Shown here in pieces: positions 29,693-33,996 of a stretch of 34,644 nt of DNA. The notes below the pieces were generated by a model that saw only the letters and a list, made by a program, of their open reading frames with translations, was not told where the DNA came from and did not search any database. Position numbers and translations under genes: made by a program. Numbering within the stretch: position 1 is the first letter of the stretch; every line of letters begins with the position of its first letter. Origin of the DNA: a bacterium (GTDB taxonomy: Bacteria > JAMCPX01); the NCBI GenBank assembly GCA_021789095.1, contig JAJYJX010000001.1:1-34644 (forward strand). The letters run 5' to 3'.

Positions 29693-30334
29693 TCACATCC
29701 CCTCGAACTGCTCTTTCATCACAAGGTAATCAAGATATTTTTTCAGGTTGTCATAGTTTCTGATCAATATGCCGTTGTTCGTCAGCTCTATAAGCCTGTT
29801 TTTGGCAAGCCTGTCCACTATCTCGCCCACCTTGTTTTTCTCCAGCCCCGTTGTAATGGCCAATTTCTCAACATCAAGCTTCAGGAAGGTGTCTGTGTCT
29901 ATCTTTGTACCGCTTTCAGCCAGTTTAAGCAGCGTAACGATGACCCTCTGGTTCGAGTCCTTTATCATAAGGTTCGCTATCTGGACATCCGCATCTTCGA
30001 GTCTTTTTGCAAGGATCCTTATTATTCGCAAGGCTATCTCCGAGTTGCTGCGGATCATTGTATCGAATGTACTGTTGTTAATGACGAGCATTTTCGCGTC
30101 TTCCACAACTTCTGCACTTGCGGAACGCGGCTTTTTATTCAGGAGCGACATCTCTCCGAAGAAATCGGACTGGCTGAGCACTGCGAGGACCTTTTCATTG
30201 CCGCCCACTTCTTTGAAAATCTTCACCTTGCCTGTGTTGATGATGTACATGTCTTCCCCTGTATCCCCCTCACGAAAGAGTATCGTGCCTTTTGGGAATA
30301 CCTTGCCAAACCTTTTAAACAGTTCATCTTCCAT
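29693..30334 (-). CDS. CRP/FNR-family regulator with intact cyclic-nucleotide pocket
   Basis: This 213-residue protein has an N-terminal cyclic-nucleotide-binding beta-roll, with GTILFREGDTGEDMYIINTG and the phosphate-binding cassette FGEMSLLNKKPRSASA (59-74). Glu61 contacts ribose and Arg70 the phosphate in this family, so it should bind cAMP or a similar ligand. The long dimerisation helix (about 93-125) is followed by a C-terminal winged helix (LDVEKLAITTGLEKNKVGEI). No cysteines are present, which rules out an FNR iron-sulfur form. The start is set at ATG 30334 because AAGGGG sits five bases upstream; GTG 30340 is inside the ribosome-binding site. It leads an operon with a phosphodiesterase-like gene, accD and a DUF456 gene. 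Confidence 0.88.
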   Translation of the reverse strand: MEDELFKRFGKVFPKGTILFREGDTGEDMYIINTGKVKIFKEVGGNEKVLAVLSQSDFFGEMSLLNKKPRSASAEVVEDAKMLVINNSTFDTMIRSNSEIALRIIRILAKRLEDADVQIANLMIKDSNQRVIVTLLKLAESGTKIDTDTFLKLDVEKLAITTGLEKNKVGEIVDRLAKNRLIELTNNGILIRNYDNLKKYLDYLVMKEQFEGM

Positions 30335-30362
30335 AAACACCCCTTGTCAGGATAATTTATAT

Positions 30363-30392
30363 TTCATAGCATATTTAAGGGCTTTTGTGCAA
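30363..30392 (-). promoter_or_regulatory. Possible promoter of the CRP-phosphodiesterase-accD operon
   Basis: Read on the minus strand, TTGCAC (30392-30387) and TATGAA (30368-30363) are 18 bases apart and about 29 bases before the ATG at 30334. The match is moderate and the -10 is overlapped by a TATAAA alternative. A second, activator-type promoter lies further upstream at 30645. Confidence 0.4.
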
Positions 30393-30440: not shown

Positions 30441-30647
30441 CTAAAATACTATTACTCCGAGCTTTATAAGCTTGTACAGTCTTTTCATTACTTCAAATTG
30501 CTCAACAGGGTTGATTATCTGCAGGATCTCTTCCATGGAAGAATAACCGTCTACCTTATCAAGGTTATATTTTACAATGTCCCGATCGTTTATATTTAAT
30601 TTCGGGATCTTTTTGAAATTGTGGAGTTTCTGTTTTCGATGCTGATT
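30441..30647 (-). pseudogene. Orphan winged-helix-like coding fragment (DUF4388 C-terminal type)
   Basis: A minus-strand frame between two TAG codons encodes 68 residues with no ATG, GTG or TTG in its first half. The sequence YNLDKVDGYSSMEEIL and FEVMKRLYKLIKLGVIVF is protein-like. It resembles the small winged helix at the C-terminus of DUF4388-containing regulatory proteins. Sequence upstream of the fragment is full of stops. It is best read as the 3' remnant of a deleted gene, though a very short peptide starting at the internal ATG (30533) is possible. The identification rests on pattern recognition only. Confidence 0.45.
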
Positions 30648-30693
30648 CTAACACGGGTAAACTTACAGATTACTTACATATTACTTACAGATT
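30645..30693 (-). promoter_or_regulatory. Three 11-bp direct repeats ahead of a TAGAAT -10: candidate SARP/OmpR-type operator
   Basis: On the plus strand ACTTACAGATT (30661-30671), ACTTACATATT (30672-30682) and ACTTACAGATT (30683-30693) are in exact register, with one mismatch in the middle copy. Read on the minus strand they lie upstream of TAGAAT (30650-30645) with a 10-base gap and would overlap the -35 region, which itself is poor (GTAATC). This geometry (11-bp period, last repeat near the -10) is known for SARP activators and resembles PhoB boxes. A SARP-like regulator gene ends 31 bases away. Confidence 0.6.
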
Positions 30694-30723: not shown

Positions 30724-33700
30724 TTAATATTTCCTTTGTAAGGAGGTATAGATTTCCCGGGTTTTGGAAGATGGCTCTATACCAAGGTTTTCTTTAAGGT
30801 TCTTATAACATGAATGATATATTGATATTGCCTCTGCATTTTGCCCAATCAGGATATAGCACGCCATCAACCGCTGATAGAATATTTCTTGAAGATGATC
30901 AACCATCAGTCCCTTATTGTAATATTCTATTGCTGCTTTCCACTCTCCATTTGCCTCACAGTACTGTCCCGCTTCTTCCAGTATATTTAAAAGCCTTCTT
31001 TGCAGCCTTTCACGATAATTCTCCGCCCAGGGGTGTGATAATTCTTTACCGAGAAATGTCCCGCGGTAAATGGATAAAATATGACTTATTATACTTGAAA
31101 TCCCATCCTGTACACCATGGGAAGTCCTGATGCCGGATGCAGAATATTTATGTCTTTTTCGTGATCCAGTCCCAGTGTTTACAGGATGATTCTTTAAAAA
31201 TGTTTCAGCTTTATCTAACCAATGCTCAATCGCCCATGTATCCACCCAACAATATCTTTTATCCAGCGTAAGCTTGCCTGCGTTGAATACTATTGCCCTG
31301 TCATTACCGAGTAATTTTCTCAGGCGGTGCAGGTTTGTGTCAAAGGCATGCTTGGCTCTATCACCGTCAGCATCTTCCCATAATGCATCAATTATATGTT
31401 CCTCACTTACGTCTTCTCCGCCGGATGCGAGGAGTACTTGAAGCAGTTCTACGGGTTTTTGGGGGACCTTCCCATTGAATCCTAATTGTTTATCTTCAAT
31501 AAACAGCTTCGGGCTCCCAAGGGTGAAGACTTTCACCGGCCATGGCCAGTCTTTGCATTCCAATGGAGGTGTATCCGGCATAAGATTTCGTTTCTTGATA
31601 AGGCTTTTCACATACTCTTTATTGATGCCAGCCTCAAGTGCTTTGACACACAGCTTGGCCATAGCAGACGGCCGCCAGCCCGGAAAGTTTACATATCCCA
31701 TATCCTGTCCAAGCTGCATTGCCCTGCGGAGAAATCTTAAACCCGATCTTTCGTTATGTTGATCAAATGCAAACAAGGCCTTTGCTATAAGATACATATA
31801 TTTAAAATGCCTCTGCTTCCTGCAGATTCGATATGTTTTGTTGAGGTAGTACAATGCCCTGGTATCTTCTGAAAGTTCGTGGAGGATTTGAGACATTTGC
31901 AGGGAGGTGAGCACTATCAGGTTTACGTCGCCTGTTTCGATAGCCGGTTTCATGCCCGTTTTCTGACTGTCGTATGTAGAAACAAAATCCTCTCTCATCA
32001 TAGCCTCGCCGGTTGAAACAATATAATATAAGGCGCGATCATACGCCCCTGCCTGTCCTATTGTTTTAGAGATCTTTTGTAAAAGCTGCCTTCCATGCTG
32101 GACATTTCCGGAACTCAGCATCCATGCGGCACCAAACGTTAAAAGTGGATGATCCATTACCTGGATTCCCGTGGTTTCAGCTACTTTTATCCCGTCGTAT
32201 AATGCCTTAAATTCAGGATCAGACACTGCCGTATACCAGCTGTATAAAACTTCTATGACCTTGAGTGTAAGAAACGTCAGGGGAGAAATCTGGTCTGAAT
32301 AAGTCAGTTTTCTCAATGGTGCAATGATCGTGTCCTCCATTGAGATATCCCCTACCGTTGAGTAGTAAAGAGCTATAATGGTACTTAATTGTATTCGCAG
32401 CTCAATAGTATCGCTGCTTTCTAAAAGAAGCGTAGCACGATTCAGCCATTTTTTAATCTTTGGATTAAAGTGCTGTCTGAAATTTAAGGCAAAGAGCATC
32501 TTAGCTACTGCTATTTTTTCTATTTCCGTAGAGGGGAAATCCTTCCTTTTTTTTACAAGCTTTTCCATGATATTTATCCATGGATCGTAGAGCCTATAGT
32601 TTCCAAGCCCATAGAATACAGAATCAACAGCCCCTGTCCACGCCATAAATATCCCGTTTTTATCTTTATTTTTTGTGAGCAGCTTGAACGCTTTTGCAAA
32701 GTAAGCGTGGCTTTCTCCGGGATTAAATGGCAATCTGCATGCACCAAACCAGTAGATAAGCCACGGGTTATTTTCACGCAGAGCATCCGGTATTCCCCTG
32801 AGCCATGCCTCCAGCGTCTGGTTCCTGCCCTGGGAAATAAGCTCTTTTGCATGGAGCAGGATCAACCGTATAACCTCCGTCCAGTCCTGCGATTGATAAA
32901 ACAAGGCAACGGCATCTTCTATGTGTCCTTCTTTTTCCAATACCATCCCTGCACGGCGCTGAACCTCCGACAGTGTTTTCCGGCTCCACACATTCATTGC
33001 CCTTGAAATCAGGAACCCCCTGAACAGGTCATGGTATTGATATACAGCTTCTGAACCTGCATGCCGCGATGTAAAGTAGTGCGAATCGGCAAGGTTTTCC
33101 AAGATTCTCTCGGGAGGCGGATATCCCATAAGCTTCTCTATCATGCCTATCGTCATTTTCGGTAAGAATGCGGTTTTCAGAAAAAAGTCCTGCATCTTCG
33201 CATCTACTTGCCTGAATATCTCGGTTGCGAAATAATCAAACACCCCGGGTGTGGAGCGCGGTATAATCGATGGTCCCTCAATATTTTCCAGCCTCGCTCT
33301 CTCCAGCATAAGGATCAATCCCGCTGCCCATCCTTCCGTTTTTGCATGCAGCTGCTTTATGGTGTCTTCCGGTATTTTTTTGAACCCTCTGGCCCGGATC
33401 AGCTTTTTTGATTCCTGCATGGTGAATTTTATATCATCCCACCCGATAAAATGGATCATGTCCTTTGCCAGGAGCCTGCTGAATACGGCGGGCGGATTGA
33501 TTCTGCTTATAATAATGACATTGATCCCGTCTGGAGCTATCGCAAGACCTTCTGCGAGCAACTCATGGAGTTTTGAATCAGGGTGCAGTTCATGGTAGTT
33601 GTCGAATACGATTGTGGATGGATACCTTAACCTGCCGTATAGATTTTCAAAATACCGTCTTGTAAATATAGCAATACCGGACAAGTATTCGGGTGTGAGC

Positions 33701-33996
33701 ATGGGCAGACGATCTTTTTCCCATGGAGCGGCGTTCTTTCCGGCAAGTCCCATGTAATAAAAGAATGTCGCTATATCATCGTCCCCTTTATCCATCTGAT
33801 ACCATAAACACCCGAGTTTCTTTTTCTCTATAAAGCTGCTTACCAGTACGGTCTTGCCTGATCCGGGCGGTGCAGAGACCCATATAATCCGGCGATCCAT
33901 TTTACGGACAAGCAGACGGAACAGTCTGTCCCTGTTTATAATGCCTTTGGGACTCTGCCGTATGATTTTGGATAGATGGCCATCTTTTGATTTCAT
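30724..33996 (-). CDS. STAND (MalT-like) ATPase regulator with C-terminal SARP module (OmpR-type wHTH plus BTAD)
   Basis: This is a 1090-residue transcription activator. Its N-terminal P-loop has APPGSGKT at 42-49 and Walker B IVFDNYHEL at about 129-136, typical of MalT/LuxR-family STAND proteins that switch on with ATP and an inducer. A winged-helix part (LHAKTEGWAAGLILM) and a long TPR-like sensor region (about 340-800) follow. Instead of the LuxR helix-turn-helix of MalT, the C-terminus carries an OmpR-type DNA-binding winged helix at 821-920 (ALWEDADGDRAK, TNLHRLRKLLG). A bacterial transcriptional activator domain with NLGIEPS follows at 925-1085. GGAGG precedes the ATG. It is monocistronic, with its own promoter at 34016. 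The inducer is unknown. Confidence 0.9.
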   Translation of the reverse strand: MKSKDGHLSKIIRQSPKGIINRDRLFRLLVRKMDRRIIWVSAPPGSGKTVLVSSFIEKKKLGCLWYQMDKGDDDIATFFYYMGLAGKNAAPWEKDRLPMLTPEYLSGIAIFTRRYFENLYGRLRYPSTIVFDNYHELHPDSKLHELLAEGLAIAPDGINVIIISRINPPAVFSRLLAKDMIHFIGWDDIKFTMQESKKLIRARGFKKIPEDTIKQLHAKTEGWAAGLILMLERARLENIEGPSIIPRSTPGVFDYFATEIFRQVDAKMQDFFLKTAFLPKMTIGMIEKLMGYPPPERILENLADSHYFTSRHAGSEAVYQYHDLFRGFLISRAMNVWSRKTLSEVQRRAGMVLEKEGHIEDAVALFYQSQDWTEVIRLILLHAKELISQGRNQTLEAWLRGIPDALRENNPWLIYWFGACRLPFNPGESHAYFAKAFKLLTKNKDKNGIFMAWTGAVDSVFYGLGNYRLYDPWINIMEKLVKKRKDFPSTEIEKIAVAKMLFALNFRQHFNPKIKKWLNRATLLLESSDTIELRIQLSTIIALYYSTVGDISMEDTIIAPLRKLTYSDQISPLTFLTLKVIEVLYSWYTAVSDPEFKALYDGIKVAETTGIQVMDHPLLTFGAAWMLSSGNVQHGRQLLQKISKTIGQAGAYDRALYYIVSTGEAMMREDFVSTYDSQKTGMKPAIETGDVNLIVLTSLQMSQILHELSEDTRALYYLNKTYRICRKQRHFKYMYLIAKALFAFDQHNERSGLRFLRRAMQLGQDMGYVNFPGWRPSAMAKLCVKALEAGINKEYVKSLIKKRNLMPDTPPLECKDWPWPVKVFTLGSPKLFIEDKQLGFNGKVPQKPVELLQVLLASGGEDVSEEHIIDALWEDADGDRAKHAFDTNLHRLRKLLGNDRAIVFNAGKLTLDKRYCWVDTWAIEHWLDKAETFLKNHPVNTGTGSRKRHKYSASGIRTSHGVQDGISSIISHILSIYRGTFLGKELSHPWAENYRERLQRRLLNILEEAGQYCEANGEWKAAIEYYNKGLMVDHLQEIFYQRLMACYILIGQNAEAISIYHSCYKNLKENLGIEPSSKTREIYTSLQRKY

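Follow-up and report, generated by a model that had tools for sequence, protein, structure and literature searches.

An 11-bp direct-repeat operator predicted for a MalT-SARP hybrid regulator, with operator letters that covary with the DNA-reading helix across phyla

Repeats and promoter beyond the end of a regulator gene

The window is a 34,644-nt stretch of bacterial DNA (contig JAJYJX010000001.1). The features considered here comprise the gene for a regulator, P0001, an array of repeats with a promoter, the remnant of a gene, and a CRP-family regulator gene:

30724..33996, minus strand: gene for regulator P0001, 1,090 aa (Pfam, NCBIfam)
31324..31341, minus strand: codons of the putative DNA-reading helix core D886-T887-N888-L889-H890-R891 (alignment with AfsR T88/R92; covariation)
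30661..30693, minus strand: predicted operator, three 11-bp direct repeats (sequence; recurrence in relatives)
30684-30689, 30673-30678, and 30662-30667, minus strand: hexamers TGTAAG of the predicted operator
30645..30653, minus strand: extended -10 TG-T-TAGAAT (TGTTAGAAT); TG-N-TA is equally spaced in most family sites
30441..30647, minus strand: gene remnant of 68 codons with no usable start (tail of a TPR protein)
30363..30392, minus strand: probable promoter belonging to the CRP-family gene itself, TTGCAC-N18-TATGAA, with a TGC extended -10
29693..30340, minus strand: CRP-family regulator, ATG probably at 30334; a predicted target in the first-pass annotation only

The repeats are head-to-tail 11-mers, ACTTACAGATT at 30661-30671, ACTTACATATT at 30672-30682, and ACTTACAGATT again at 30683-30693, and 30 nt separate them from the end of the regulator gene at 30724. 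The minus strand reads AATCTGTAAGTAATATGTAAGTAATCTGTAAGTTTACCCGTGTTAGAATCAG, that is, three TGTAAG-N5 units followed by the extended -10 TG-N-TAGAAT; the same units can be written as heptamers, CTGTAAG or ATGTAAG, with 4-bp spacers. TAGAAT (30645-30650) lies 10 nt from the last repeat and 11 nt from the last TGTAAG. No -35 can be recognized, and a consensus scan listed no sigma-70 site there. The sequence and the scan confirm what the first-pass annotation had described, namely, three adjacent 11-mers and a minus-strand TAGAAT box 10 nt beyond them with a poor -35; the TG of the extended -10 was absent from that annotation. Placing the -10 at -12 to -7 makes the two promoter-proximal units span -40 to -19, the region bound by AfsR, and we infer a leftward transcript start near 30638. 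The window contains the trait of SARP-type operators, 11-bp direct repeats over a poor -35 and near a -10, and the leftward direction of the promoter and the location of the repeats where a SARP would overlap the -35, both claimed earlier, are likewise supported. A period-11 self-match of 20/22 occurs at a single place in the whole window, a value never attained in 200 Markov simulations of the window (simulated maximum, 17/22). The repeat triplet has one occurrence in the genome.

P0001 joins a MalT-like ATPase to a SARP module

P0001 consists of a MalT-like STAND ATPase (residues about 15-413), a middle part, and a C-terminal SARP module (residues about 820-1090 of 1090). The NCBIfam MalT model matches residues 15-413 with an E value of 6.3e-52, below the whole-protein equivalog cut-off. 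At the other end of the protein, Pfam matches over cut-off to a Trans_reg_C winged helix (wHTH; PF00486, residues 846-899, E = 1.6e-6) and to BTAD (PF03704, residues 961-1086, E = 1.9e-19) form the SARP domain pair, an OmpR-like wHTH followed by BTAD, and the NCBIfam AfsR model matches residues 844-1082 (E = 2.7e-11, below the equivalog cut-off). Pfam gave no match in P0001 to GerE, the LuxR-type HTH, in whose place the SARP module stands, and no Response_reg match indicative of a receiver domain. An AlphaFold model of residues 816-1090 has a pLDDT of 87, and its best PDB matches are EmbR and AfsR. AfsR R92, T88, and R87 correspond to P0001 residues 891, 887, and 886 in the alignment, and T887 and R891, which align with T88 and R92, are invariant across ten aligned proteins.

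The C terminus of MalT is a LuxR-type HTH. Because a MalT core recognized by NCBIfam is combined with a Pfam SARP module whose model resembles EmbR and AfsR, P0001 is, as judged from its domains, a MalT-SARP hybrid that carries a SARP module where MalT has the LuxR helix-turn-helix. The C-terminal position of the module makes P0001 a SARP-module protein rather than a classical SARP, in which the module is N-terminal. P0001 is the sole full-length MalT-SARP hybrid found in its own 92%-complete genome; the other BTAD gene of that genome, on contig C96, is a 5'-truncated fragment.

Genes downstream of the promoter

The frame at 30441-30647 is the tail of a TPR protein from which about 8 to 10 codons have been deleted internally. 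Elsewhere this TPR protein is encoded by the third gene of a J-protein/Hsp70/TPR operon, and an assignment of the 68-codon frame as the N terminus of the J-protein (group B) was rejected because it is the tail of that third gene. The operon is headed by the repeat motif in relative G001; in the window's own genome it is intact on contig C116, without the motif. The original target of the window promoter appears to have decayed, and as a gene fragment is what follows the promoter, the latter might itself be a relic.

The first-pass annotation had the promoter feeding a CRP-phosphodiesterase-accD operon. A comparison of eight loci led us to reject this operon as a conserved target. The CRP-phosphodiesterase synteny is kept in relatives, with other genes upstream, and the repeats precede this locus in none of the seven relatives having it. 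A promoter of the TTGCAC-N18-TATGAA type lies ahead of CRP in six of eight aligned genomes, the window's own included. Because the relatives' loci are without repeats and a conserved promoter precedes CRP itself, control of CRP is unsupported as a conserved feature; the first gene downstream in the window, moreover, is the start-less fragment. P0001 might still read the site in this strain chiefly to drive CRP-phosphodiesterase-accD by read-through over a 300-nt leader: the promoter is directed toward CRP, no terminator on the minus strand was listed by the scan between the two, and the three repeats and the -10 are intact though the adjoining reading frame has decayed. Some read-through into CRP may occur in this strain, but we consider it unlikely to be the main purpose of the site, given the conserved promoter of CRP itself, the CRP operons of relatives without repeats, and the intervening DNA, which is the remnant of an unrelated operon.

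A second strong site, TGTAAGCAATCTGTAAG-N8-TGATAGAAT, was observed in the same genome on contig C96 (locus L226, 3287-4488). It lies between the 5'-truncated BTAD gene and a divergent gene for a receiver-domain protein, which follows the site. This receiver-domain gene is the likeliest working target of P0001.

Recurrence of the motif beside homologous regulators

CTTACA-N5-CTTACA occurs without mismatch in 8/8 family genomes, mostly with a GATNA-like spacer, and when an extended -10 at fixed distance is included, most of these genomes have more sites than reversed-pattern controls. The family sites precede orthologous groups with a fixed -10 spacing. Four of these groups encode a receiver-domain protein; a J-domain/TPR protein, with an Hsp70 after it; a GerE-HTH protein that matches PAS weakly; and a ~380-aa exported protein. 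The fifth is an HTH_11-like gene that diverges from a BTAD gene. Most commonly in the family, the regulator gene is followed by an operator-promoter of its own that faces away from it.

An exact scan of 85k genomes returned 51 loci, and 12 of the sites lay ≤0.5 kb from a P0001 homologue (phmmer), in Desulfobulbaceae, other deltaproteobacteria, Sedimenticola, Nitrospiria, Nitrosomonas, Nitrospirae, and, weakly, Hahella. Beside homologous regulators, the element is nearly always directed away and usually just past the 3' end, as in the window; at L105, L107, L122, and L142, it lies 20-35 bp beyond the 3' end of the regulator and faces away in the same manner. Nitrosomonas nitrosa, with sites in L113, is a carrier that has been cultured. 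Some exact-scan matches, e.g., those in Lachnospiraceae and Paenibacillus, look like chance.

The first larger frame after the site encodes a PEP-CTERM protein at L107, L182, and L188 (Sedimenticola, Nitrospirota), with Pfam E values of about 2e-6 for two of the three and a weak match for L188. Other loci have genes for lipoprotein-like and YadA-like proteins and for sensors. These genes suggest control of surface proteins.

Similar motifs were also observed in other settings. Three near-identical sites, TGTAAG.AGTTTGTAA..GGGCGGTATGTTA, on contigs C8 and C16 of a Ruminococcus genome (G091) have no known MalT-SARP link and are perhaps the box of another regulator. A dispersed repeat, TTTAAGTCCTCTGTAAG...GTCATTGCGA, is present in many copies in the window's genome (contigs C13, C53, C70, C154, C181, and C182) and also in relatives G001, G004, and G008; it is probably a mobile or REP-like element, and its likeness to the operator is by chance. 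In the upstream flank of L238 (Nitrosomonadaceae genome G307), the unit TGTAAGtcatcTGTAAGtcaccTGTAAGtcactTGTAAC is repeated four times at 11-bp spacing next to a MalT-SARP gene.

Converse tests starting from the regulator

Sixty-four regulator genes were taken regardless of the motif, and 600/300 bp were searched. At ≤1 mismatch, 27 genes had a site facing away versus 4 toward the gene (control mean, 0.27; control maximum, 2), and for exact sites the counts were 15 and 0. A matching site at ≤2 mismatches was found for 33 genes; for about half of the 64, the searched 600/300 bp held no match. The first-pass annotation had proposed asking whether the repeats are lost where relatives keep the regulator, and these proportions (33/64 at ≤2 mismatches and 27/64 at ≤1) speak in favor of its claim.

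For 29 Nitrospirota regulator genes, eight sites (≤2 mismatches) faced away and none toward (permuted control, 0.02), and 92 kb of Nitrospirota regulator gene bodies contained no site at ≤2 mismatches. Across 198 Nitrospirota genomes, 33 sites and 0 reversed-pattern matches were found. The regulator is present in 16/19 site-bearing genomes versus 54/198 overall (Fisher p = 7e-8), a strong regulator match being absent from 3 of the 19. All 13 regulator-adjacent sites in Nitrospirota face away, 12 of them beyond the 3' end of the regulator. Nitrosomonadaceae repeat the same pattern with TGTATG and TGTAAC variants (12 sites away and 3 toward at ≤3 mismatches; control, 0.5).

Covariation of helix and operator

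Sites for covariation analysis were picked without bases 4-6 or, in another run, without bases 5-6. Among 32 proteins of <70% identity, permutation linked residue 886 with base 6 (p < 0.001), residue 887 with base 5 (p < 0.001), and residue 890 with base 4 (p = 0.01). G6 was found with D, E, N, or Q at 886 in 15/17 cases and with other residues in 2/15 (p = 4e-5), and A5 was found with T887 in 23/25 and with other residues in 0/7 (p = 1e-5). Pairs of helix and operator include DTTLHR with TGTAAG, RTTLHR with TGTAAC, SVNIIR with TGTAGT, STTLQR with TGTGAC, and KITLHR with TGTATC. The proteins stay related after thinning; at 55% identity (n = 15) the grouped tests were still significant (p = 0.011 and 0.002), and significance was lost at <50% identity (n = 10).

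R92 and T88 of AfsR contact bases 3 and 5, respectively, of every repeat, and R87 contacts the backbone beside base 6 (PMC10936776). The AfsR structure thus independently predicts the covarying pairings, which points to the regulator next door as the protein that reads the repeats and is a strong argument against a PhoB-like one. Covariation together with the AfsR contacts supports a predicted set of helix-base contacts in TGTAAG, in which R891 would read base 3, H890 base 4, T887 base 5, and D886 base 6. In the code that we propose, residue 886 specifies base 6 (D/E/N/Q, G; R/K, C; S/V/G, T or C), residue 887 specifies base 5 (T, A; V/I/M, mostly G or T), and Q or Y at 890 tends to go with G at base 4. 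Since the operator letters change in step with the DNA-reading helix, the pairing of regulator and operator should be predictable and testable.

The reader of the repeats

The SARP-type regulator next door is very probably the reader of the repeats, because the neighborhood is conserved across phyla and helix and operator covary; the same evidence supports the earlier suggestion that a SARP-type regulator acts here. A box for a response regulator of the OmpR/PhoB/WalR type was also considered. Such regulators also bind 11-bp direct repeats (WalR consensus, TGTWAH-N5-TGTWAH; Pho box, TGTCA-N6), their motif and spacing are similar to those of the window repeats, and in most family genomes full-length OmpR-type regulators number one or two. 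By inspection, the two OmpR genes of the window's genome were named as a CusR-like pair, located next to a TolC-like gene, and a PhoB/PhoR-like pair. However, no site was seen near family OmpR genes, whereas sites cluster by MalT-SARP genes in several phyla, nearly always facing away. Motif presence tracks the MalT-SARP regulator (p = 7e-8), and the operator letters track the neighboring SARP helix, C, T, and G variants included. A PhoB/OmpR-type reader is therefore very improbable and was rejected on site location and covariation. PhoB and WalR boxes resemble the window operator in their 11-bp direct repeats near the -35 and their TGT core, but they are read by response regulators, and P0001 is without a detected receiver domain. 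That the repeats arose by chance, or are tandem copies of purely structural nature without a regulator, is scarcely credible. Slippage does generate short tandem repeats, but 0/200 simulations reached the observed self-match, the motif recurs phylum-wide at fixed promoter spacing with zero control matches in 198 genomes, and it covaries with the helix.

We consider it highly likely that the repeats are the operator of P0001, as predicted, and that side-by-side SARP modules recruit RNA polymerase to the extended -10, leftwards. A signal would switch on the ATPase/TPR part of P0001, and SARP modules would then bind next to each other, each to its own 11-bp repeat, on the same DNA face and over the poor -35. 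The bound modules would bring RNA polymerase to the extended -10, with leftward transcription from about 30638. Binding, side-by-side occupancy, and RNA polymerase recruitment are all modeled on AfsR and PimR, and activation, not repression, is suggested by position only.

Comparison with known systems

The window operator follows the logic known from SARPs, and the system nearest to it in design is that of PimR, the SARP-LAL regulator of Streptomyces natalensis. Like P0001, PimR couples a SARP module to a large-ATPase (LAL) part; its operator also has three heptamers with 4-bp spacers, and its single target lies next door, a likeness to the window system (PMC3367932, PMC5930380). That target is the PAS-LuxR gene pimM, and one family target group is the GerE-type HTH protein with the weak PAS match. 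PimR differs in its N-terminal SARP, its heptamer CGGCAAG, an operator without -35 overlap, its actinomycete host, and its antibiotic-synthesis pathway. AfsR (8hvr, 8k60) shares the wHTH+BTAD fold with P0001, T88/R92 being conserved as T887/R891, and its afs box has two 11-bp repeats at -40 to -19 over a poor -35 (PMC10936776), an arrangement like that of the window promoter. The order in AfsR is SARP-NOD-TPR, whereas the SARP module is C-terminal in P0001; the two are different proteins, and P0001 falls far short of the NCBIfam AfsR equivalog cut-off. MalT, the Escherichia coli STAND activator, matches the N-terminal 400 residues of P0001 (E = 6e-52) but ends in its LuxR-type HTH, where P0001 has the SARP module and no GerE domain was found.

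SARPs are known mainly as activators of antibiotic pathways in actinomycetes. Judged by the searchable literature, a C-terminal SARP on a MalT-type switch outside actinomycetes, an operator common across phyla, and a helix code are new; no paper on a helix-to-base code or on BTAD regulators of PEP-CTERM genes was found in the open-access literature. The MalT-like switch with a SARP module occurs in mostly uncultured Nitrospirota, ammonia oxidizers, and deltaproteobacteria. A sharply defined operator with a sequence-derived helix-to-base code would yield regulon predictions for many unstudied regulators and open simple swap experiments.

At L096 and L099 (relatives G004 and G007), paralogous MalT-SARP genes with the helix STTLQR have TGTGAC repeats after them, so operators seem to differ between paralogues within a single bacterial family. 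If operators are set by helix residues, paralogues in one genome would be orthogonal switches. We regard it as fairly likely that MalT-SARP hybrids are self-located switches in multiple phyla, that their operators can be read off the protein via the 886/887/890 code, and that their paralogues are orthogonal. If so, orthogonal paralogues would in many cases govern small regulators, along with surface proteins that are exported or of the PEP-CTERM type. In relatives G001 and G003, a tandem pair of MalT-SARP genes encloses two small genes (regions L224, 264-976, and L225, 3832-4544, both minus strand) that, judged by eye, resemble a toxin-antitoxin pair of the AbrB/PIN type.
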